Shown here one piece after another: positions 3,460 to 24,809 of a stretch of DNA of 24,809 bases; within the stretch, counting starts at the first letter, position 1; each line of letters starts with the position of its first letter. The position numbers were made by a program, and so were the translations under genes. The notes under the pieces were generated by a model. The model had not been told where the DNA came from and did no database searches. It saw nothing but the letters and a program-made list of their open reading frames with translations. The stretch comes from a virus: positions 1-24,809 of IMG/VR virus record IMGVR_UViG_3300042301_000709. One strand, written 5' to 3'.

Positions 3460-5895
3460 TTAACGTGGTTCAAATTCAGCCATGTCAAAGCCATCAAGGG
3501 AATCCTCATTGGATTCAAAATCTATCGGTGGTAGGTTGTTCTTTCGTTGATTAATCAATTTAGATTGCTCAGAGTTTTGCTGACTAATACGTTTAGCTTT
3601 AGCATCTTCTCTTTCCTTTTCTCTTTGATCAAGAGACTGAACATCCATTCCTTTTAGTTGCATTTGCATGTCAAACTCAGTCTGCATCAACTGTTGTTTG
3701 AGTATGGCCTCATTCTTCATCTTCTCAATCTCAAAAGCAACCTCAGCTTGCTTAATCTGCATTTTAGATTGTGTCTCAAGTTGAATCTTCTGCATAGCAG
3801 TTTGAGATGCCATCTGTTGGATTTGAACTTGCTGTTGAGCTTGAATAGCCTGAGTCTGCATTGCACGCTGTTGCTCCTTCTCTTCTTTCTTAACTCGCTT
3901 GAGTTTTAAGAGTTGGTTAGCCAACTTGAGATTTTTAATTTCGCGTATATCAATTGCATCCTCAAGGTTAATATCACCCTTAGATAAAGCAATTTGAATA
4001 TTTTGCTCAAGCTGCGCTTTCTCTTCTTCGTCGGGAGAGATGTCGATGAAAATTCCGAAGTCATATACGTATAGGTCTTTAATTTCATTTAAAATAGATA
4101 CATTGTATTTACCAATCTTATTGGCAAAGTCATCTCTAAAGTCAGCATACTCAAGAATATCTGCAATTCTATATGTAAGTGCCTCAGCTATTGATTTGAA
4201 CATATATAGACTACCGTCAAGAATGTGACGTGTAGCTGTATTTGAGTTAAGTGCAGCAAGCTTCTGTACACCAATTAATGCACGAGGATCAGGATCTGAA
4301 CCATCACGAGCCTCATTAAGACCTGTAACTGAACGCAACATATCCATGTAGTGGTTGTAATTTGCGATAAGCATCTGAGTCTTAGCAGCACCGGAGTTAC
4401 TGTTTAATTCTTGTATTGGAACACGAGCGTTATTGAACTCGCCGTCTTGGGTATAACTACGTCCAATTACACTACCCGTTTGGAAGTATAGTCGAAGTGC
4501 ATCCTCAGGATTGTAAGCAGCTCCTGTACCAAGGTCAACCTCATTGAGACCATCGGCGTCAATGAATACACCATCAGGCACAACGCGTGCAATTACTTGC
4601 TGAAGCTTCAAGTGCGTCAACTGAATCAAGTCAGCAAATGGTATCATTCGACGAACCATTGACTCAATAACACCTTTATACATACGTGGCGCAACAGCTA
4701 CATAGTTTGGTAAAGCGTGCTGAGTAGCTGATTTTGGTCTAACCATGTTCTCAGCCATCTCCCACTTAAGTAGGATATTGGTACCCATGACCATAATGCC
4801 ATTATACCAAACGTCAATTATCTTCTCGATTTTTTCAAAGCGACCTTCTTCCATCATCTCCACAGGAGGATTGAAGTTTTCGTCTTTCTCAATTACTCTT
4901 GTATTTCCATTGTCAAGAATTTTCTTCTTGTATACAATTTTCTTAGTAGTCTTATAGTTAAAGTAAAGAAGAGTGCACGTATCACGGTAAAAAACATTAT
5001 TCTCGTAGAATTGAGCTACATTATAGTAGTCATACCAACTTTGGCTGTATTTTGAAATTTGCTCCAAATCCTCACGTGTGAGTGATTGGTCAATCTTGTA
5101 AAGTTCTGTAATTGAAAGAGTTCTTATTTCACCCCAATAGAAACAGTCTCTAAAGTATGGGTCTTCAGTGTAGCTGTATACAATGTTTGCAGGATCTACG
5201 TATGAGATTTGAACACCTGCTCCCGGAAGGAACTCATGCTTCTCTACAGCGATACCAATGGTCATTAGGTCGTAGTCACACTGCTTACGAATATTGTCAT
5301 ATCTATTCTCATCAAGAATAGTATTGATAGCCTCCTCCTCTGCAATCTCAATCGCAGGTTTGTAGTTGAGGTTCATATACAATGATAGCTCTTCGTCAGT
5401 GCTTGGTAGCTCATCAGGGTTCATCACAAATGGATCAACACCTGTTTGATCTTTTATATTCATCAGAAGGTCTTTTGCAACCATCTGACTCTCAATCATA
5501 TCTTGATACTTATTTCTTTTTGCCTGAGACATTCCATCCTGAGCATATGCCTTAACCTTGAATAGACGGTCAGACATTCCATTGACAACAATATCAACAA
5601 ACTTAGGAATAATTGGAACAGGTGTCCAATCAAGGTTGATATATGATAAATCACCATCAACAGCAAGTTCATCCTTGTATTTAGCAATAGGCTGCTCACC
5701 ACGCGCATATAAACGCAAGCGGTGAAAATCACGCCATTGGCTGTAGTATCTACATTGATTTCCATCCTTACGGAACCACTCGTACTGTATGGCCTGTCCA
5801 ACTTGGAGACCAAATTCATCCGTTGCTTTCTCTGCATCAGTTGCGAATTGACTCGGAAATGATGTGGATGATATGTTTACAATTACTTCTTTCAT
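3460..5895 (-). CDS. Portal protein (811 aa)
   Basis: Forms the dodecameric DNA-entry ring at one head vertex, docking the terminase during packaging. Evidence is its position directly after TerL (the two overlap as ATGA at 5892-5895), its size at the large end for portals, and the usual mixed alpha/beta composition. Residues about 84-110 ('INLDWTPVPIIPKFVDIV') match a segment I associate with portals of crAss-like and related Bacteroidota phages. The C-terminal part, about 664-785, is a Gln/Met/Lys-rich coiled coil, which could form the helical barrel reaching into the head. The last 25 residues are acidic. The start at 5895 is the only ATG consistent with translational coupling to TerL; no Shine-Dalgarno sequence precedes it. 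Family assignment is confident by context, but the exact clade is not. Confidence 0.88.
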   Translation of the reverse strand: MKEVIVNISSTSFPSQFATDAEKATDEFGLQVGQAIQYEWFRKDGNQCRYYSQWRDFHRLRLYARGEQPIAKYKDELAVDGDLSYINLDWTPVPIIPKFVDIVVNGMSDRLFKVKAYAQDGMSQAKRNKYQDMIESQMVAKDLLMNIKDQTGVDPFVMNPDELPSTDEELSLYMNLNYKPAIEIAEEEAINTILDENRYDNIRKQCDYDLMTIGIAVEKHEFLPGAGVQISYVDPANIVYSYTEDPYFRDCFYWGEIRTLSITELYKIDQSLTREDLEQISKYSQSWYDYYNVAQFYENNVFYRDTCTLLYFNYKTTKKIVYKKKILDNGNTRVIEKDENFNPPVEMMEEGRFEKIEKIIDVWYNGIMVMGTNILLKWEMAENMVRPKSATQHALPNYVAVAPRMYKGVIESMVRRMIPFADLIQLTHLKLQQVIARVVPDGVFIDADGLNEVDLGTGAAYNPEDALRLYFQTGSVIGRSYTQDGEFNNARVPIQELNSNSGAAKTQMLIANYNHYMDMLRSVTGLNEARDGSDPDPRALIGVQKLAALNSNTATRHILDGSLYMFKSIAEALTYRIADILEYADFRDDFANKIGKYNVSILNEIKDLYVYDFGIFIDISPDEEEKAQLEQNIQIALSKGDINLEDAIDIREIKNLKLANQLLKLKRVKKEEKEQQRAMQTQAIQAQQQVQIQQMASQTAMQKIQLETQSKMQIKQAEVAFEIEKMKNEAILKQQLMQTEFDMQMQLKGMDVQSLDQREKEREDAKAKRISQQNSEQSKLINQRKNNLPPIDFESNEDSLDGFDMAEFEPR

Positions 5896-8153
5896 GTATT
5901 CAAGGAGCTAATATTCCCTTTATTATTATATGTAGCAAATTTAATGCTTATTTTTGACTCTTTTACCTCAGGTTGATATAAGTGCTTCTGACAAGCCATA
6001 ATAGCCAATCCTGAGCTAATTGTCGCATCAAACATTGTACGATCACTAATATCGAATTTAGCCCAATCTTCTAGTGTTTTGTTGAACGGCATAAAGCCCA
6101 TCTCACCATCTTCTTGAATACCAATGTACTTCTCAATGTAACTCTCAATGGCTGCAGCATGCGCCTGCTTTACATCTTCTGATGAGTTTGGTATACCACC
6201 TAGTTCACGCTCTGTCTTAGACAACTTAGCGTACACCTTGTCAGGACGATTGATACAGAACCCACGGTATCCCCTGTTCTTAAAGTGATACAGCAAACGC
6301 GGTTTGTTGTTCTCAATTAAGATTGGCATACCATAAAACACACAAGCCATTAATACCTCCTCAAAGAATATCTCTGCAGTCTGTGGACGAGCGATGTATT
6401 CCAAAAAGAATTGGTTTGTAGGTGCCTCATCCATGTGGTATTTAGTTAGACCATGTAAAGCTCCATTTGAACCTCTACCTACAACAACTCCTGAGATATC
6501 ATAGGAGTCACATCCAAACGCCCCAATGTGCTCATTACCGGGATATCTAATTCCATTCTTAGTGTATACTTGGTTTTGCAAATGCTTTGCAGGAGACCAT
6601 GAAATTAAGAACCTTCCCCTTCGATCAGGGGTGAATATCACTTGGGTATCTTTGATGCCATCCTTCCAACTAAATGAACCTCTAGTGTAGTGATGCTCTT
6701 TAATCAATGTATCGTTAAAGTCAATCTGCTGATATATCTTAGTCAAGTTAAATAGAGCGGCCTTACTCTCATCACGAAATGCGTGAGACTCTGTTCTTGG
6801 GAACTGACGATAAAATTCGTTGAGTGCATCAGGGTCATTCTTTAATGAGTCAACCTCTGCCTCCCAATAGTCAATGGCGCCATTAACAATCATGTTGCCA
6901 TCTACCCCCTTGATAGGAGTACTTGGTTTACGCAATACAGGCATTCCATAAAGGTCAATAAAGCCCTCCATATTCCACTCCATAGGAATGAATAGACCAT
7001 AAAGCCCCGACTTGGTCTGACCATTGGCATTTCGTGTAGACGGCTTAGAATCCTCATACAAGTCTTTGTAGTTCTGACCACCTTTGCTCAATGCATTTGA
7101 TGTAGAACCCATCATGCACTTACCGATAATCTTAGAACCCAATCGCAAACACGTCTTAGTTACACGCCAATTGTTCAGAATGTTATTTGGCTTAGTCCAT
7201 TTTGCACTCTCATCATGCGCTAAGAACAATAGTTTCTCACCATCGTAAGAGTTCTCATCTGTGTTCTTCCAATCTATTGTTGTGTCAAGGCCATCTACCC
7301 CATCCTCATCAATCTCATGCATATTCTTTTTGGTGATCTTTGAAGCAGGAACGCGATAGGCAAGTTCTGTCTTTGGCTTATCCATACCATCCATAACAGG
7401 CTTGAAGAAGAAAGGTAAGTTACTGTTGATAGGAACAACTTTGTCTGTGAACATCTTCTTGGCATCGGAACCTGTCTTAGATAGGATACCAACCCTAGAG
7501 TCTTTTGCAAGAGTTGCAATGTTTACACATTCTGATGATGACATGAAAGAAAATCCGGAACGACGTATCTTTAAATACACCATGCCAAAGCTTCTATAGT
7601 CAGCTTTACAGGCCTCCCAATATATAAAAAATATACGGTTTGCTTCTCGGAAGTCAGGATATCCGACGTCAATCTTAGACCACTGCAGGTACATGTAGTG
7701 AGAACCTGTCATGTATGTTGGAGTGCCGTTGTTCATGAACCAATGTCCTTGCTCTCGGCGATCAAACTCTTTCTCTATATAGTCAACATATTGCGCCTTA
7801 AAATCTTTAGGCATTTCGTGCCATTGGAATATTGACTGAATGCGACCCAACTGTTTTGGTATGTCAACACGCTCCCAATACTGTTCTGATGATTTAGAAC
7901 TTCTGCTCGTGCAATTTGAAGGAACATCAGGAAGAGCTATATTCACTCCATTGATATTGTATATATCACCTACTCTTCCTGTCTTTGATAATATTACGAC
8001 ATCGTATTGGTCATTATAACCGTATTGCCAACTGTGATTTCGATTCTTTTGATCTTTAACCTTCTTGGGTATGTGATCTTTAACAATGCGATATAGCTTA
8101 TTTAGCTCTTCGCTCTGCGAATCCTTGTTTAGTGTCAAGCTTTGGTGAGTCAT
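5892..8153 (-). CDS. terL: Terminase large subunit (TerL), ATPase plus nuclease
   Basis: The 753-aa motor pumps DNA into the prohead and cuts the concatemer. Visible ATPase motifs are a deviant Walker A around residues 195-203 ('KIRRSGFSF'), Walker B 'LLFLAHDE' with Asp314-Glu315, and a coupling motif 'GSTSN' at 349-353. A segment 'FPRTESHAFRDES' (451-463), common in phage TerL, precedes the nuclease domain. Nuclease acidic residues fit Asp549 ('FGCDSYD'), Glu614 ('ILIENN') and Asp709 ('FDATISS'). The first 90 residues extend beyond a minimal TerL. The gene overlaps the upstream 94-aa gene by 56 bases and the portal by 4, so all three should be co-translated. Both enzyme centres look intact. 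Confidence 0.95.
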   Translation of the reverse strand: MTHQSLTLNKDSQSEELNKLYRIVKDHIPKKVKDQKNRNHSWQYGYNDQYDVVILSKTGRVGDIYNINGVNIALPDVPSNCTSRSSKSSEQYWERVDIPKQLGRIQSIFQWHEMPKDFKAQYVDYIEKEFDRREQGHWFMNNGTPTYMTGSHYMYLQWSKIDVGYPDFREANRIFFIYWEACKADYRSFGMVYLKIRRSGFSFMSSSECVNIATLAKDSRVGILSKTGSDAKKMFTDKVVPINSNLPFFFKPVMDGMDKPKTELAYRVPASKITKKNMHEIDEDGVDGLDTTIDWKNTDENSYDGEKLLFLAHDESAKWTKPNNILNNWRVTKTCLRLGSKIIGKCMMGSTSNALSKGGQNYKDLYEDSKPSTRNANGQTKSGLYGLFIPMEWNMEGFIDLYGMPVLRKPSTPIKGVDGNMIVNGAIDYWEAEVDSLKNDPDALNEFYRQFPRTESHAFRDESKAALFNLTKIYQQIDFNDTLIKEHHYTRGSFSWKDGIKDTQVIFTPDRRGRFLISWSPAKHLQNQVYTKNGIRYPGNEHIGAFGCDSYDISGVVVGRGSNGALHGLTKYHMDEAPTNQFFLEYIARPQTAEIFFEEVLMACVFYGMPILIENNKPRLLYHFKNRGYRGFCINRPDKVYAKLSKTERELGGIPNSSEDVKQAHAAAIESYIEKYIGIQEDGEMGFMPFNKTLEDWAKFDISDRTMFDATISSGLAIMACQKHLYQPEVKESKISIKFATYNNKGNISSLNT

Positions 8154-8382
8154 CTTTTACCTCCTCTAGCGTAGCTTTCTCAGCTTCAATTTTATTTAGA
8201 ATTTCGAATGCATCAAATATAGCTAATCGTTTTGATGCGGCAGCATTTTTTAATTTATCCGCAGATAAATCATCCTCAGGATCAGGCTTAATGATATCCT
8301 CTTTAGCAACCTTAATGAGTTGTTCAACAGCTCTATAACCTGCCTCAATAATACTTCGTCTTAAGTCTTTCTCTCTGCTCAT
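8098..8382 (-). CDS. Small protein upstream of TerL, small-terminase candidate (94 aa)
   Basis: This short, highly charged, helix-rich protein has no membrane segment. Residues 1-28 are a basic amphipathic helix; about 33-42 hold an acidic segment ('DPEDDLSADK'); 43-75 form a second long helix region; the last ten residues are basic. It overlaps TerL by 56 bases and the upstream gene by 4 (ATGA at 8379-8382). A small terminase subunit, which recognises DNA for packaging, is normally encoded immediately before TerL and is helical, so this is the obvious candidate. However it is short for a small terminase and has no helix-turn-helix that I can point to. An unrelated packaging accessory protein is equally possible. 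Confidence 0.6.
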   Translation of the reverse strand: MSREKDLRRSIIEAGYRAVEQLIKVAKEDIIKPDPEDDLSADKLKNAAASKRLAIFDAFEILNKIEAEKATLEEVKDDSPKLDTKQGFAERRAK

Positions 8383-8942
8383 AGTTTTACTGTGATTTGA
8401 TGGTCATACATTCGGTATAGCTTCTCGTCATCTACGATGAACTCATACTCACTCTCAGGCTTAAAACATACCTTGTCTCCCGCCTTTATTCCGGCATTAA
8501 TAAGCGCCTCGTTTGGATAGCGCATAATACCCATCAATGGCTCTTCACTTAGTGGCTTATAGATATATGTTTCTTCGGGTTTTACAGGCTCAATGAAGCA
8601 ATACTTGTCGTATGCCATCCAAGACTCACCGTCATGGAACATATAGAATTGATCAGGCTCAATTAAGAACATATCCTCCTTGAAGAAGCTCTTACCGCTC
8701 TTACGTCGACCCTTCATGTCGTTGTAGAACTTGAACACGTTGTGATGTACAAGTAACTTATGCCCGGGCTTTATAGGTCCTTCATAACCTAGTGGCACCT
8801 CGATAACCTCAGCTTCACGATTTGAGAAACGATGGTCTTCTTCAGAAGTGCTTATAATAAGGTCGATACCACCAATCTCCTTGGTGTTATTGTATCTCTT
8901 CCCCTTAAGTGGTTTAGTGATAAAGTAAAATGGTGATTGCAT
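8379..8942 (-). CDS. Tandem GroES-like (co-chaperonin fold) protein (187 aa)
   Basis: Probably a two-domain protein of the GroES fold. The C-terminal part, residues 121-187, follows the GroES pattern: 'AGIKAGDKVCFKP' resembles the turn where GroES proteins have 'VGDxVxF', and 'DDEKLYRMYDHQITV' resembles the terminal strand 'EEVLIMSESDILAIV'. Residues 43-120 repeat the scheme less clearly ('IKPGHKLLVHH' and 'KEDMFLIEPDQFYMF') with a basic insertion 'MKGRRKSGKSF' where a mobile loop or roof might be. It sits between a virion-type small protein and the terminase genes, with ATGA overlap on one side and a TAATG junction on the other, so it is made with the assembly proteins. It may assist folding of capsid or tail proteins, or use the fold structurally. 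The match is from pattern reading, not a search. Confidence 0.55.
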   Translation of the reverse strand: MQSPFYFITKPLKGKRYNNTKEIGGIDLIISTSEEDHRFSNREAEVIEVPLGYEGPIKPGHKLLVHHNVFKFYNDMKGRRKSGKSFFKEDMFLIEPDQFYMFHDGESWMAYDKYCFIEPVKPEETYIYKPLSEEPLMGIMRYPNEALINAGIKAGDKVCFKPESEYEFIVDDEKLYRMYDHQITVKL

Positions 8943-10209: not shown

Positions 10210-11082
10210 TTAGATAATTATTTTATATGAATCAATGCTCTTCTCAACTCTATCAACACCACCTTTCATTATCCTAATATTTTTTAGTCTCAAAATGCGT
10301 CCACCAATTGGCTTTGGAGGAGCGCCTCTCTCAACGTGCCATCCATGATGCCCATCCTCATACTCCTCTTTGTATGTACCTGTAAGCATTAGGTGGATTT
10401 GACGCTGCTTCATTTGATATCCTTTGTTTGGATGATGTTGGATCATATCTCTTACATCATTTCGAGATGCATTCTCGTGGATGTGACCCATAGTAAATAC
10501 ATCAAAGTCCTCATATAACTCTAGTGCTCTAGTTAGATTTATTGCTCCCTTTGTAACAATTCCTCCACCACCTGATCCATGGAAATATTTTACTTTGTAA
10601 GTATTTACTGCTCTAGTACCAACCTTAAATACCAACCACCCGCCGTAGCCTCCAACCTGAACATTTGTTCCACACTTTAAATTAAGTAGATCAACAAAAC
10701 GCTGAAGGATATCTGTCTCCTGCCACTTGATAATTCCTGTCTCATGGTTACCATAACCAATAACAGTTAATATCTCAGCATATGGCGCCCACCATTCTAC
10801 AGCCGTCTCAACAATTGAGTCAAGATATCTGAAGTTGTTATGCTCAGGTCTAATGTCTGACTTGTTTCTACGATTATCACCGCGCCCCTGCATAAGGCAG
10901 AAGAAGTCTCCATTTATCATGACAGGTATGTCATACTTCTTAAAATAATCTAAGTGACTTTTTAATACATCCCAATCGCACTTTGGATTGTCCCAATGGA
11001 TGTCTGATAACATTGCTATATGAAAGTCATCCGTAGGGGCGATTATCTCATGTAAATTTTTTGAGTGCTTGACTAATTGCAT
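10210..11082 (-). CDS. Calcineurin-like metallophosphoesterase (290 aa)
   Basis: A two-metal phosphoesterase of the calcineurin-like superfamily, hydrolysing phosphomono- or diesters. The full signature is present: 'LSDIHWD' (Asp27, His29), 'NGDFF' (Asp59), 'GYGNHET' (Asn112, His113), 'YFHGS' (His168) and 'MGHIHE' (His200, His202). All metal ligands appear intact, so it should be active. The substrate cannot be read from sequence; candidates are host or phage nucleic acid, nucleotides, or a cell-wall phosphate. It sits at the end of a unit with a spanin-like lipoprotein, overlapping that gene by 35 bases, which is an odd place for a nucleic-acid enzyme and hints at a late, perhaps virion or lysis-time, role. 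No signal peptide is present. Confidence 0.88.
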   Translation of the reverse strand: MQLVKHSKNLHEIIAPTDDFHIAMLSDIHWDNPKCDWDVLKSHLDYFKKYDIPVMINGDFFCLMQGRGDNRRNKSDIRPEHNNFRYLDSIVETAVEWWAPYAEILTVIGYGNHETGIIKWQETDILQRFVDLLNLKCGTNVQVGGYGGWLVFKVGTRAVNTYKVKYFHGSGGGGIVTKGAINLTRALELYEDFDVFTMGHIHENASRNDVRDMIQHHPNKGYQMKQRQIHLMLTGTYKEEYEDGHHGWHVERGAPPKPIGGRILRLKNIRIMKGGVDRVEKSIDSYKIII

Positions 11083-14425: not shown

Positions 14426-14953
14426 TTAAGCATATTTTACAACTCTTGCCATCTGAACAACATTACTGTCTGAAGCAGAATTATTCTGAACACAGAATAG
14501 AAGATAATTATTTACAGATGCATTAAATGGAACTACTGATTCACTAGAATACGCAGCATAATCTTGAATAGTTATTGATGTAGCAAGTAAGGTATATAGG
14601 TTAGATGTATTTATTCTTATAATTCTATTACCTTGAATTAATGTACTAGTGTTTGAAGATACAAAAGTTATTACTAACGCAGCTCCTGTTAATGTTGGTG
14701 ATGTGTTTAAATAGACAGAGCAAGATTGAGCACCTGCAGTCCCCGTCTTTTGATATCTAGCCATGACTTCAATAACTGACTCACCTGTAATAGTATTTGC
14801 AGGAATTAAAAGAGAACGAGATATAGATAGTGCAGTTGTACCTGCAATAACAGTTCCATTAGTTGCACTCAATGCAATAACTGATGGGTTTGAACCCAAT
14901 ATTAATGGAGCTCCATTAACTTTGTACTGACCGCTTATATTTATGTTTGTCAT
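14426..14953 (-). CDS. Putative fibre/adhesin, tandem paralogue 1 (175 aa)
   Basis: One of three full-length paralogues in a row, plus a fourth gene sharing only the N-terminus. It opens with the module 'INISGQYKVNGAPLI', then 'NPSVIALSATNGT', and contains 'LLIPANTITGESVIEV', 'LNTSPTLTGAALVI' and the terminal 'MARVVKYA'. The protein is rich in Thr, Ser, Asn and Val with no membrane segment, and probably forms a beta-sandwich tip on a short N-terminal anchor. Its C-terminal half is the most diverged of the three. It overlaps the upstream paralogue by 4 bases (ATGA). Position among spike and fibre genes indicates a receptor-binding or decoration role; no catalytic motif is seen. Confidence 0.72.
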   Translation of the reverse strand: MTNINISGQYKVNGAPLILGSNPSVIALSATNGTVIAGTTALSISRSLLIPANTITGESVIEVMARYQKTGTAGAQSCSVYLNTSPTLTGAALVITFVSSNTSTLIQGNRIIRINTSNLYTLLATSITIQDYAAYSSESVVPFNASVNNYLLFCVQNNSASDSNVVQMARVVKYA

Positions 14954-15483
14954 ACCTCTAAATATTTTACAGCTCTAGCCATTTCAACTACTGCGCTATC
15001 TGCAGCATTAGCCAACTGAACAGCAAAAATTAAGTAATTATCTACTGACGTATTAAATGTAGCCGATGTTAGGGGATTTGTATTAAGATTATAGTCTAGT
15101 AATATAGTTGCACCTGTCGGCCAAGTAGTTAATGTATTTGAGTTTACTCTGCCTGTCCTAATTCCTTGAATAATGTTATTAGCTGAATTTGCAAATACTG
15201 CAATCTGAGTAGAACCTGTTAATGTTGGTGATGTGTTTAAATATATAGCAAACAAACAACTTCCTGCAGCCCCAACTTTATTATATCCTACTGCCATATC
15301 AAGCATTCCATTTGTAGTAAAGGTATTTGCAGGAATTGTCAATATTCTTGACGCAGTAAGAGCTGTTGTACCCGTAACACTAGTTCCATTTGTTGCATTA
15401 AAGGCAATGACTGATGGATTTGGGCTACCTCCAATAGGAATTCCATTAATCTGATACTGACCATCTATATTTATATCTACCAT
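14950..15483 (-). CDS. Putative fibre/adhesin, tandem paralogue 2 (177 aa)
   Basis: A close paralogue of the next gene to the right (15486-16019). It opens 'MVDINIDGQYQINGIPIGG' and contains 'SPTLTGSTQI', 'GIRTGRVNSNTLTTWPTGA' and 'VDNYLIFAVQLANAADS'; the last two blocks are nearly identical in the neighbour. At DNA level the 3' part keeps long exact matches at a constant 530-base offset, while the middle differs, consistent with recent duplication plus local divergence or recombination. Small, beta-rich, without membrane segments: probably an exchangeable receptor-binding head on a common anchor. It starts 2 bases after the upstream paralogue and runs into the downstream one by ATGA. Confidence 0.75.
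   Translation of the reverse strand: MVDINIDGQYQINGIPIGGSPNPSVIAFNATNGTSVTGTTALTASRILTIPANTFTTNGMLDMAVGYNKVGAAGSCLFAIYLNTSPTLTGSTQIAVFANSANNIIQGIRTGRVNSNTLTTWPTGATILLDYNLNTNPLTSATFNTSVDNYLIFAVQLANAADSAVVEMARAVKYLEV
14996..15172 (-). repeat. Duplicated block, copy A (partner 15526-15702)
   Basis: Within paralogue 2 this stretch aligns with 15526-15702 at a fixed 530-base offset. The 53 bases 14996-15048 differ from 15526-15578 at one position. A second run, cacctgtcggccaagtagtt plus 11 bases (15111-15141), is exact, as is cctgtcctaattccttgaat plus one base at 15152-15172. Between these runs the copies differ strongly, giving a mosaic. Confidence 0.85.
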
Positions 15484-15485
15484 AT

Positions 15486-16019
15486 CTATGAATATATAAC
15501 TGCCCTTGCGATATTTACCACCATACTATCTGCAGCATTGGCCAACTGAACAGCAAAAATTAAGTAATTATCTACTGAGGTAGTAAATGCAGCCGAGTTC
15601 CTTGTTCCTGAATTTGACGCCCAATCCAATAAAAAAGCAGCACCTGTCGGCCAAGTAGTTAATGTATTTGAAATTATTCTTCCTGTCCTAATTCCTTGAA
15701 TATATAAAGATGAAGAATTATTTACATATCTTGCAATCATTACAGCTCCTGTCAATGTTGGAGATGTGTTTCTATAAGCAAAACAATTCACAGTACCTGC
15801 AGCCCCTGTCTTTTGATATTTTACTAAAAACTCAAGCATCCCATTTGAAGTAAATGTATTGGCAGGAATAAGCAAAGACTGTGACATTGTAATAATTGTT
15901 GTTCCTGTTACAGGTGTTCCACCCGCAACACTTAATTCAATGACAGAAGGGTTTGAAGTTACACCTAAAGGAACTCCATTTACCTTGTACTGACCATCTA
16001 TATTAAAATCAACAGGCAT
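15486..16019 (-). CDS. Putative fibre/adhesin, tandem paralogue 3 (177 aa)
   Basis: The first of the three full-length paralogues in transcription order. It opens 'MPVDFNIDGQYKVNGVPLG' and contains 'SLLIPANTFTSNGMLEFL', 'NTSPTLTGAVMI', 'GIRTGRIISNTLTTWPTGA' and 'VDNYLIFAVQLANAADS'. The central segment differs from paralogue 2, where a binding surface would be expected to vary, while the ends are conserved. Composition (Thr, Ser, Asn, Gly) and absence of membrane or catalytic motifs indicate a beta-structured virion protein. It starts at a TAATG junction with the 51-aa gene. Confidence 0.75.
   Translation of the reverse strand: MPVDFNIDGQYKVNGVPLGVTSNPSVIELSVAGGTPVTGTTIITMSQSLLIPANTFTSNGMLEFLVKYQKTGAAGTVNCFAYRNTSPTLTGAVMIARYVNNSSSLYIQGIRTGRIISNTLTTWPTGAAFLLDWASNSGTRNSAAFTTSVDNYLIFAVQLANAADSMVVNIARAVIYS
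15526..15702 (-). repeat. Duplicated block, copy B (partner 14996-15172)
   Basis: Second copy of the mosaic repeat. Exact runs at 15541-15578, 15641-15671 and 15682-15702 match the first copy at a constant 530-base offset; intervening bases differ. It lies in the 3' half of paralogue 3. The equal spacing shows the two genes arose by tandem duplication with few indels in this part. Confidence 0.85.
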
Positions 16020-16174
16020 TACTCTCCTTTTAATCTTTTAAGTTCTTCATATAAAGCAAGAAGCTCAGCTTCTTTTTGCGCTACTAATTCTTCTTGTGTT
16101 GGTTCGTCAACCTCTATGAACTCTACACGGACCAAGCCGTTGTCGTCGTATATTTCGTTTCTTACTTGTGGCAT
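16019..16174 (-). CDS. Small acidic protein in the adhesin array (51 aa)
   Basis: This ORF reads from ATG 16174 to TAA 16019 and encodes 51 residues. The N-terminal part 'MPQVRNEIYDDNGLVRVEF' is beta-like; the C-terminal 25 residues ('QEELVAQKEAELLALYEEL') form an acidic coiled-coil helix. Its stop overlaps the start of paralogue 3 (TAATG), and it begins 11 bases after the upstream adhesin gene, so it fits the operon exactly. It may be a trimerisation or fibre-assembly helper. I recognise no named family. Confidence 0.72.
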   Translation of the reverse strand: MPQVRNEIYDDNGLVRVEFIEVDEPTQEELVAQKEAELLALYEELKRLKGE

Positions 16175-16185
16175 TGTTTAAATTT

Positions 16186-16779
16186 TTAAGCAGGTGTTAA
16201 CGCTATCCATGGCATATTTCCCGATTGAAAAGATGGGCTTGTTATGTTTGCAGGTGCAGAACCTAAAGATGCATTTACAAAATATCCTTGTACTGAGTTA
16301 ACTGTACCTCCGGATTGCGCAATTACATATGTGCTTGATAATGTTGTTTGTATAATGTTTGCAATTGTTGCATTACCATGAAAGGCTAACCAATAAGTTG
16401 TACCCGCAGTGAATGTAAATGATGTTGTAGCAACTTTAAAACCCGTTGTTGATAGGTCTAAGTTTGCACTTTCATAAAGTTTAGCATCGGGCAATCCATT
16501 GTTATCTGAATAAATTAACAAACGACATAAAGAACCTGCAACGGCAATATTGCCAAACATTAAAATCTCAGAAATTGTAAATGTATTTGCGGGAAAAAAT
16601 GGTATTAACACCAATCTGTTTGCTGTGAAAGTCGCACCCGTTGTTGCAGTAGTAAGTTGATACGTTAAACGTCTACCACTTACCGGCTTAGGAAAGGCAT
16701 GAATACCTTTTACGCCACCACCACCAATAGGCACACCATTCTGAAGATATTGCCCACTTATGTTAATATCTACAGCCAT
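16186..16779 (-). CDS. Putative fibre/adhesin sharing the GQY-NG N-terminal module (197 aa)
   Basis: The N-terminus 'MAVDINISGQYLQNGVPIGG' is the same module that begins the three tandem paralogues, but the rest is unrelated to them. Residues about 60-197 look like a beta sandwich, with 'LCRLLIYSDNNGLPDAKLY' and 'TFTAGTTYWLAFHGN', a pattern I associate with carbohydrate-binding or concanavalin-like domains in adhesins. No membrane segment. It lies 1 base from the upstream 112-aa gene. A shared anchor with a different head is best explained by modular exchange of receptor-binding domains. Confidence 0.72.
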   Translation of the reverse strand: MAVDINISGQYLQNGVPIGGGGVKGIHAFPKPVSGRRLTYQLTTATTGATFTANRLVLIPFFPANTFTISEILMFGNIAVAGSLCRLLIYSDNNGLPDAKLYESANLDLSTTGFKVATTSFTFTAGTTYWLAFHGNATIANIIQTTLSSTYVIAQSGGTVNSVQGYFVNASLGSAPANITSPSFQSGNMPWIALTPA

Positions 16780-23304: not shown

Positions 23305-23748
23305 ATGGATGACTACCTAAAATATTGGAAGGTCATACGCCAATACGTCAAGATAAAGTATGGACTAAACCAAGCTGATCTTGATATGATCCTGTTTCTC
23401 TACTCAGAGGCGTACTTCAATAAAGATAAGTTTGATGAGTTTACCCGCCTAGTTGGGTGGGATGCAAAGCGTTTTAAGCGAATGCTCAAAGAGGGATGGC
23501 TTGAGTCGTTCCGTAAGCATGACCCAAAAACAAATAGGAGAGCCCTGTATAAGCTCTCCTTTAAAGCGAAGCATCTTGTGACGCTAATCTATAAATACCT
23601 GAATGGTGAACAACTCATCGCTGAGTCTTATGTCAACAACCCACTACTTCTCAAAAAGAGCAAGCGCTACCGTGATGCTGTAATGAGAGGTGCCGTGCTA
23701 AAGCTAAACGACTCTATACGACAACAACAACATCGCGCTCGTGAATGA
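23305..23748 (+). CDS. Winged-helix-like protein, possible regulator (147 aa), only plus-strand gene
   Basis: The order of segments suits a winged helix-turn-helix: helix at about 22-36 ('QADLDMILFLYSEAYF'), helix pair at 42-66 ('DEFTRLVGWDAKRFKRMLKE' within it) with a basic second helix, a hairpin-like wing at 68-86 ('RKHDPKTNRRALYKLSF') and a closing helix at 88-100. This resembles MarR-type or related DNA-binding proteins, though no family can be assigned. The C-terminal third is basic and Gln/Arg-rich. It is transcribed against all other genes from a shared promoter region, as expected of a regulator, and its last 35 bases overlap the 3' end of groES in the opposite direction. No terminator is seen after it. 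Confidence 0.7.
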   Translation: MDDYLKYWKVIRQYVKIKYGLNQADLDMILFLYSEAYFNKDKFDEFTRLVGWDAKRFKRMLKEGWLESFRKHDPKTNRRALYKLSFKAKHLVTLIYKYLNGEQLIAESYVNNPLLLKKSKRYRDAVMRGAVLKLNDSIRQQQHRARE

Positions 23749-23971
23749 TGGTGTACGGCTTGTCGTTGATCACCATCGTGTAGGAGTGACTCTTGTCGTA
23801 GTAAATCTCATCGCCTGACTTTATTGCAGCCACCTCAGTACCCGCCACCACGACCTTGCCAATCTTATAGCGAAAGTCATTTGCGTCATGCGCACTCAAG
23901 AGGAGGCCTGACTCAGTCTTGACCTCCTTCTCAATTGTCTCAATAATTATATTCTTGCCGATTGCAATCAT
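23714..23971 (-). CDS. groES: Phage co-chaperonin GroES
   Basis: An 85-aa GroES, the lid that closes the GroEL folding chamber. The family layout is present: 'IGKNIIIETIEKEVKTESG' at the N-terminus, a mobile loop at about 18-32 ('ESGLLLSAHDANDF'), then 'GKVVVAGTEVAAIKSGDEIY', and 'IIHERDVVVVV' as the closing strand. The usual roof loop is shortened. It overlaps groEL by 4 bases (ATGA at 23968-23971), giving the order groEL-groES, the reverse of most bacterial operons. Its stop lies inside the opposing winged-helix gene. As phage T4 gp31 shows, phage GroES can adapt the chamber to capsid proteins. Confidence 0.9.
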   Translation of the reverse strand: MIAIGKNIIIETIEKEVKTESGLLLSAHDANDFRYKIGKVVVAGTEVAAIKSGDEIYYDKSHSYTMVINDKPYTIIHERDVVVVV

Positions 23972-24809
23972 CTCGCGTCATATGTTCGCGCCATTGTGAT
24001 AATGGCGTCAGTTGATAAAATTGTCGTTGCCACACTCACAGCGTTCTGTAGCGCGCTTCTTGTCACCTTGAACGGGTCAATGACACCCATCTGCAATAGG
24101 TCACCATACTCACCCGTCTTCACGTTGTAGCCCTTGCCATCCTCGAGCAACATCCCATCAAACTTGTAGATGTCCTCAAACTTAAGCCCGGCATTCGCCA
24201 AGATTTGCTTCGCAGGAGTCTCTAACGCGCGACATATGATGTTAAATGCAGCCTCAAGCTCCGCAGTCTCACTCACCACACCATGCAGGTGTAGCGACTC
24301 ATCAAGGAGTGCCTTGCCACCACCGGGCAGCACACCCTCCTCCAAAGCCGAGCGTACCGCACACACAGCATCATCGACCCTGTCGTATAGCTCCTTCTGC
24401 TCAATGTCAGTCGTACCACCCACGAAGATGACACCAACGCCACCTGTGAGTGATGCAATGCGCGACAAGATAAAGTCCTTCTCATGCTTCTTAGTCGCCT
24501 CACCATGCGCAGCCCATAGCTGCTCCACGCGCTCAGCCAATGCCTCTTCATCAGTGCGCACCGGTGAGTTAATGATCACAGTGTTCTGCGAGTCCACAAT
24601 GATCTTCGCAGCATGACCCAAGTCAGCGTATGTCATCAAACTCAAGTCATCACCTGTCTTCTCACTGAAATACTTGGCACCAACCGCCAAGGCAATGTCA
24701 CCCATCAGCTCATGCTTCTTGTACCCAAAGTTAGGCGGCTCAATAGCACACACCTTGAGGTTGCCCTTGGCTACGTTCGCTGCCAATGTGTTGATCACCT
24801 GTGTCGCAC
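23968..24809 (-). CDS. groEL: Phage chaperonin GroEL, C-terminal half (cut by the window edge)
   Basis: Corresponds to about residues 260-525 of E. coli GroEL: the end of the apical domain, the second intermediate segment and the C-terminal equatorial part. The frame stays open to the window edge; the Met sometimes assigned at 24798 is an internal GTG (Val), since 'ATQVINTLAANVAKGN' aligns across it with the substrate-binding helix. Counting from that codon, the key ATPase residue equivalent to Asp398 is Asp143 ('DRVDDAVCAVRSALEEG'), 'LPGGGKAL' is at 158-164, and Asp241 ('GVIDPFKVTRSAL') equals Asp495. The Gly-Gly-Met tail of bacterial GroEL is absent; it ends 'MARTYDAR'. G+C is near 60-65% in sampled lines, against about a third in the adhesin region. 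The enzyme part appears functional. Confidence 0.95.
   Translation of the reverse strand, partial: ATQVINTLAANVAKGNLKVCAIEPPNFGYKKHELMGDIALAVGAKYFSEKTGDDLSLMTYADLGHAAKIIVDSQNTVIINSPVRTDEEALAERVEQLWAAHGEATKKHEKDFILSRIASLTGGVGVIFVGGTTDIEQKELYDRVDDAVCAVRSALEEGVLPGGGKALLDESLHLHGVVSETAELEAAFNIICRALETPAKQILANAGLKFEDIYKFDGMLLEDGKGYNVKTGEYGDLLQMGVIDPFKVTRSALQNAVSVATTILSTDAIITMARTYDAR

Follow-up and report, generated by a model that had tools for sequence, protein, structure and literature searches.

The end of a 24,809-base virus fragment (IMG/VR record IMGVR_UViG_3300042301_000709, referred to here in its entirety as the window) encodes both a GroEL and a GroES, which raises the question of whether this phage carries a folding chamber of its own. 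Both genes scored above Pfam cut-offs, with 110.9 bits against 34.3 for the groEL fragment (positions 281–488 of the 490 in the Cpn60 profile) and 43.5 bits against a curated 21.1 for groES. The smaller protein thus qualifies as a Cpn10-domain protein, and the original prediction of a phage-encoded GroEL with its own GroES was confirmed. The groEL fragment covers the apical domain from about residue 256 together with the C-terminal parts of the intermediate and equatorial domains, and its N-terminus is missing only because the contig ends there, with the 279 codons (23968–24807) still open at that point.

Apart from this chaperonin end, the window is a late region encoded on the minus strand, with terminase, portal, capsid-type, and tail-fibre genes, and within it lies a gene absent from the original prediction, coding for a 187-aa predicted second co-chaperonin (Table 1). 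Elsewhere in this region, four consecutive minus-strand ORFs of 175–197 aa (14426–16779), each starting with an (N/D)I(S/D)GQY..NG.P motif, form an array of tandem paralogues close to the genes for tail fibres. A 290-aa minus-strand ORF (10210–11082), uncalled by Pfam, carries the calcineurin-like phosphoesterase motifs SDIHWD, NGDF, GNHE, and GHIH.

Table 1 Chaperonin-related and late-region features of the window, with the basis of each assignment
Feature	Coordinates	Strand	Basis
groEL, C-terminal 279 codons	23968–24809	minus	Pfam PF00118, E 8.7e-32; phrog_5725, E 2.4e-64
groES, 85 aa, roof hairpin deleted	23714–23971	minus	Pfam PF00166, E 3.4e-11
ATGA shared by the groEL stop and groES start codons	23968–23971	minus	read directly in the sequence
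groES mobile-loop hydrophobic motif SGLLLS	23894–23911	minus	alignment with E. coli GroES GGIVLT
Second co-chaperonin, 187-aa predicted tandem Cpn10 (Cpn20-like)	8379–8942	minus	phrog_13932 co-chaperonin GroES, E 8e-21
94-aa ORF where a small terminase would lie, immediately after the tandem co-chaperonin gene	8098–8382	minus	position only
Terminase large subunit	5892–8153	minus	phrog_6681, E 8e-174
Portal protein	3460–5895	minus	phrog_6547, E 9e-144
Virion structural protein	869–2314	minus	phrog_13704, E 7e-97

Gene order and distribution of the groEL–groES pair

On the minus strand, the groES start codon (ATG, 23971–23969) overlaps the groEL stop codon (TGA, 23970–23968), so that the predicted joining of the two genes through ATGA could be read directly. 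An identical −4 spacing was observed in relatives L003–L012, L029, L128, and L146; because groEL and groES lie 0–1.9 kb apart in most of the GroEL family, the ATGA junction is limited to the nearest relatives and a few others. groES was located downstream of groEL in every relative examined, and since small accessory genes separate the two in most of them, tight coupling is evidently not essential. In most relatives the interval is occupied by variable small ORFs of membrane-like, zinc-finger-like, and possible homing-endonuclease types, and examples of this accessory-gene hot spot include L016 (10838–11824), L025 (10157–10876), L053 (10829–11627), and L070 (6667–8533).

Two further features of the locus were observed. 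G+C content reaches 52% over the groEL fragment (24001–24800) compared to 39% for the window, with a comparable rise over groEL in the nearest relatives and a smaller one in AT-rich relatives; this could reflect codon selection or an older transfer. On the other side of the pair, a 147-aa plus-strand ORF (23305–23748), which weakly resembles a family of phage transcription regulators (phrog_12817, phrog_17028), is convergent with groES, the 3′ ends of the two overlapping by 35 bases.

Complete GroEL–GroES pairs had been expected to be rare in phages, an expectation that was not borne out, as isolates with such pairs are documented and relatives of the window GroEL are encoded by at least 598 stretches in IMG/VR. 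Relatives of the GroEL fragment were also identified in 199 of 50,697 phage records, with Vibrio and Flavobacterium phages dominant. GroEL and GroES occur together in ctfjg026 (MW202828, Podoviridae sp., Manatee Spring), Elemovirus (the Flavobacterium phages vB_FspP_elemo, with 68 entries in the phage collection), immuto, phi38:1, and Calle, as well as in Maribacter phage Panino (PMC11590407), and a GroEL has been reported in 36 environmental genomes related to phi38:1 (PMC5332604). That some phages own both proteins is likewise stated in the part of PMC7185714 that cites Marine et al. 2017. The pair itself is already known, then, from related aquatic phages. In the record L223 (CAKLQH020000021, ‘Acinetobacter phage MD-2021a’), groS-groL genes sit beside dgkA, glpQ, and a lipid kinase gene, so that this stretch has the look of bacterial chromosome and not of a phage.

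The gene order, described as reversed in the original prediction, is indeed groEL before groES, but this is not peculiar to the window, since Elemovirus and ctfjg026 are organized alike; in phi38:1 and immuto, groES lies ahead of groEL. In ctfjg026, the two genes overlap as in the window, although by an annotated 44 bases instead of through ATGA, and a convergent regulator ORF again follows, with the same tail-to-tail overlap with groES; identity to the window is 61% for GroEL and 59% for GroES. Elemovirus differs in that its GroEL is only ~37% identical and keeps L234, its GroES is without the Arg-Tyr pair described below, and its chaperonin and late genes lie on opposite strands. Cellulophaga phi38:1 and Calle (Pervagoviridae) encode a small GroES, as the window does, but place it before groEL with one gene in between, and the sequences of both, like those of Panino, are ~30% identical to the window's.

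Conservation of GroEL and of its partner GroES

Full-length GroELs were available from 75 relatives (L003, L005, L004, and others), including a near-identical contig (L003, 96% identity over 279 GroEL residues). These proteins are mostly 535–550 aa long and align end to end with GroEL, in line with the anticipated 520–550 aa; in L003 and L005, the mechanically assigned start, a TTG, precedes an ATG by two codons, which makes ~539 aa likelier than 541. Residues D52, D87, D398, and D495 are kept in 75 of 75 full-length relatives, as are G32, P33, T89–T91, R197, G416, and the GDGTTT loop, and positions 386 (as Asp), 409, and 501 are kept in nearly all. The middle Gly of the GGG loop, replaced by Ala in most of the GroEL family, is Gly in the window, where Asp398, Asp495, and this loop are intact, as had been claimed. 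The N-terminal domain and the equivalents of Asp52 and Asp87, on which the notion of a working phage chaperonin hinged, are likewise present in the relatives. The window GroEL ends with ...IITMARTYDAR and has lost the Gly-Gly-Met tail, again as predicted; the tail is also missing from aligned family members and from Elemovirus, so its loss appears common among aligned phage relatives and is diagnostic of nothing by itself.

The GroEL family can be aligned over its whole length with group I chaperonins (E 1e-100 to E. coli chains), and it shares ~40% identity with bacterial GroELs. In the phylogeny of host and phage chaperonins that had been proposed as a check, it formed a single phage-specific clade (SH-aLRT 100), outside the Bacteroidota sequences included in the tree. 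Branches within the family are short, while one long branch (2.1 changes per column) separates it from all other GroELs, a pattern which indicates that groEL is under constraint. A recent capture from a host was ruled out by this separate, long-branched position, and the same long branches make the deep placement of the family relative to the Elemovirus and phi38:1 GroELs unsafe. Host capture is further opposed by the sole match in the genome collection, obtained in a non-exhaustive scan with query-specific peptides, which was a phage-like contig (L166, NHEP01000119) carrying this phage GroEL and binned in MAG TMED88. A second contig of this MAG has a 190-aa ORF with a weak Cpn10 match, and both are probably phage contigs binned with a bacterium.

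Of the solved structures, Thermus Cpn10 is the best relative of the window GroES (E 6e-9), and their alignment does not contain the roof segment. About nine roof-hairpin residues of E. coli and Thermus GroES are deleted between strands in the phage protein, which thus lacks the roof beta-hairpin of GroES/Cpn10; as the AlphaFold model of this GroES is poor (pLDDT 58), the deletion is read from the alignment. T4 gp31, which is also without GroES roof loops, a feature believed to let it accommodate the larger capsid protein (PMC6318259), indicates that a missing hairpin is compatible with the wider Cpn10 fold family. Both gp31 and RB49 CocO are phage lids like the window GroES, but T4 has no GroEL of its own, the mobile loop of gp31 is longer, and sequence similarity is low. 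A G-[LI]-hydrophobic-L-S loop motif was found in every GroES family member examined.

The lid site of GroEL and the loop of GroES both carry changes specific to this clade. Relative to E. coli, the lid-site changes noted for the window are L234E, V263A, and V264A. Position 234, where the Leu of E. coli GroEL is a hydrophobic contact for both lid and substrate, is Glu in 74 of the 75 full-length relatives and Gln in one, and Arg-Tyr occupies GroES loop positions 34–35 in every partner examined; neither feature occurs in Elemovirus, immuto, or E. coli. Judging from these alignments, Glu234 and Arg-Tyr may form a cognate contact. Because both are invariant in the family, they represent a single between-clade correlation based on few independent events, which is not proof of contact.

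The predicted tandem Cpn10 protein of the packaging gene run

Public records annotate the 187-aa gene either as hypothetical or simply as GroES, and within a literature search limited to open-licence papers the protein is apparently without earlier description. Its gene sits in the run of terminase, portal, and capsid genes, directly before the 94-aa ORF and the terminase, after which come the portal and capsid-type genes. The homologue is found just upstream of the terminase in phi18:3 and, alongside a GroEL, in phi38:1, Calle, and Panino. It takes the same place in Elemovirus, as a 180-aa ‘co-chaperonin GroES’, and in ctfjg026, where it is 69% identical to the window protein and annotated as hypothetical.

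An AlphaFold2 model of the 187-aa protein, built with 36 relatives, is almost all beta (pLDDT 76, pTM 0.71). In Foldseek, chloroplast Cpn20 and Cpn23 come out as its best solved matches, with both domains covered by the alignment (E 3e-4 and 1e-3, TM 0.53–0.58); about thirty chains of single Cpn10 come next, with gp31 lower in the ranking. The best named match among viral models is the phi18:3 cpn10. The C-terminal half of the phi18:3 and phi38:1 homologues scores above the Pfam Cpn10 cut-off. When the window family was aligned with Elemovirus, phi38:1, Panino, and phi18:3, the C half of this diverse alignment matched a GroES profile with P 5e-7 and the N half with P 5e-4, the latter collinear and including the mobile-loop region. 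N halves alone gave no Pfam match, the tandem was not proven by sequence in the window family alone (hhalign P 0.3–0.9 for the N half), and the internal N-versus-C similarity is weak (P 0.01–0.02). Taken together, the model and the profile comparisons make two Cpn10 domains placed head to tail the probable architecture. In the first predicted domain, a loop with a Gly-hydrophobic pattern (GG-I-x-L/F) is kept, and the second is too short for a mobile loop; a loop was therefore not found in both domains, and we name the protein Cpn20-like rather than Cpn20. Chloroplast Cpn20/Cpn23, which also consist of two head-to-tail Cpn10 domains and are used beside single-domain Cpn10 (PMC5780408), share only 14% identity with it over the alignment, and the comparison gave no evidence for common descent of the tandem.

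The tandem gene and GroEL are largely inherited together in the window lineage. Among 48 records searched (47 found through a window-type GroEL and one Elemovirus), 41 carry the tandem gene, including 19 of 19 of at least 58 kb. Starting from the tandem gene, GroEL was found in 16 of 42 records, among them each of the six that reach 60 kb or more, and those without GroEL are mostly fragments. Tight in the window lineage, the association is loose outside of it: Cellulophaga phage phi18:3 carries the tandem gene but lacks a GroEL, and in immuto, phi14:2, VAP7, K469, and DAC16 a GroEL is present and the tandem gene was not detected.

A serious rival, though on balance one we lean against, is that the 187-aa product is a Cpn10-fold packaging or virion protein without lid function. 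Its gene lies between tail or structural genes and the terminase in every phage examined, and the protein is more conserved than GroES (81% against 66% mean column identity). In addition, a ring of these subunits would show one loop per two domains, given the C-terminal domain without a mobile loop in the alignment. The loop kept in the N-terminal domain argues for a lid instead, as does the resemblance of phi18:3 TESGLEL to the TESGLLL of the window GroES, and the best fold matches, about thirty in a row, are Cpn10/Cpn20 lids. This alternative concerns the second co-chaperonin only and is compatible with a dedicated GroEL–GroES chaperonin.

Proposed chaperonin system and its alternatives

The best explanation for this locus, which we consider probable, is a dedicated phage group I chaperonin made of GroEL and its cognate GroES, plus a tandem second lid protein. 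A full-length, ATP-driven GroEL and its GroES would be translated from one coupled message and would form a closed folding chamber, whose dome would be larger or open, given that its lid, like T4 gp31, is without the roof hairpin; the lid would be shaped for larger substrates. The tandem-Cpn10 protein, made from the packaging/head gene run, would probably serve the same chamber or host GroEL and act while late proteins (capsid, portal, or tail) fold; if one lid is specific to the late stage or to certain substrates, it is the best candidate. The virion structural protein, whose gene follows that of the portal, is on this basis likely to be the major capsid protein, and we regard it as a candidate client. 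For such a system, ring formation, the ATP cycle, lid exchange, and substrates are what we infer.

At the level of sequence, the gene content, the intact ATPase residues, the cognate-looking changes at the lid site, the conservation, and the co-inheritance of these genes are established. Peptides of the homologous phi38:1 GroEL have been detected by mass spectrometry both in Cellulophaga cells under infection and in samples of free virions (PMC13288928). A ‘chaperonin cpn10’ entry in Table 2 of PMC8776804 was dropped as virion evidence, as that table lists core genes and not virion proteins. The proposal of a self-sufficient chamber retains the complete, conserved pair and the intact ATPase residues, but is complicated by the presence of a second co-chaperonin.

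A single chaperonin may also work with two lids, a roofless GroES encoded in the operon of groEL and a tandem Cpn20-like lid encoded in that of the packaging genes, with the choice of lid selecting the substrate or setting an asymmetric chamber for capsid and portal proteins. We regard this version as unlikely; if true, it would be the first such system outside plastids.

We give little credence to a single-ring machine like OBP/AR9, in which GroEL would be a lone holdase or foldase and groES only partly needed. Residues R452, E461, S463, and V464 of E. coli, whose mutation gives single-ring GroEL, are mostly replaced across the family (K452, K461, E463, and D464 in the window), so that a single-ring mode is conceivable, and the changed lid-site residues point the same way. 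With these inter-ring contacts replaced and Ala at 263–264, the phage machine may, from its sequence, be mechanistically different from GroEL. The phage-encoded GroEL homologues EL, OBP, and AR9 need no co-chaperonin, and single-ring forms are known (PMC9598537, PMC7185714), namely those of AR9 and OBP (PMC9598537). However, these homologues are far more divergent than the window GroEL, which is ~40% identical to group I along its length and falls outside their group, as its best matches are GroELs of group I (E 1e-100 or better), compared with 4e-35 for the GroEL-like chaperonin 6tmt, and groES invariably follows groEL in the relatives examined, with its mobile-loop motif kept.

Just as improbable is a system in which the phage lids mainly redirect host GroEL like T4 gp31, the phage GroEL being a helper or mixed with host subunits: phi18:3, having no GroEL, must use the host chaperonin if its tandem protein is a lid, but the phage GroES loop and GroEL site carry matching clade-specific changes, and the distance from bacterial GroELs together with the altered inter-ring residues makes mixed rings unlikely.

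Beyond the known pair, what sets the proposed dedicated chaperonin apart is its roofless lid, its altered interface, and its predicted tandem second co-chaperonin, for which the annotation of the 187-aa gene is corrected here. The result is a compact system of three co-inherited genes, for GroEL, GroES, and the tandem Cpn10 protein, and among its relatives Elemovirus and phi38:1 are available in culture as isolates. Two questions are thereby made testable: why some phages carry a whole chamber and others a lid only, and whether tandem lids arose outside plastids.
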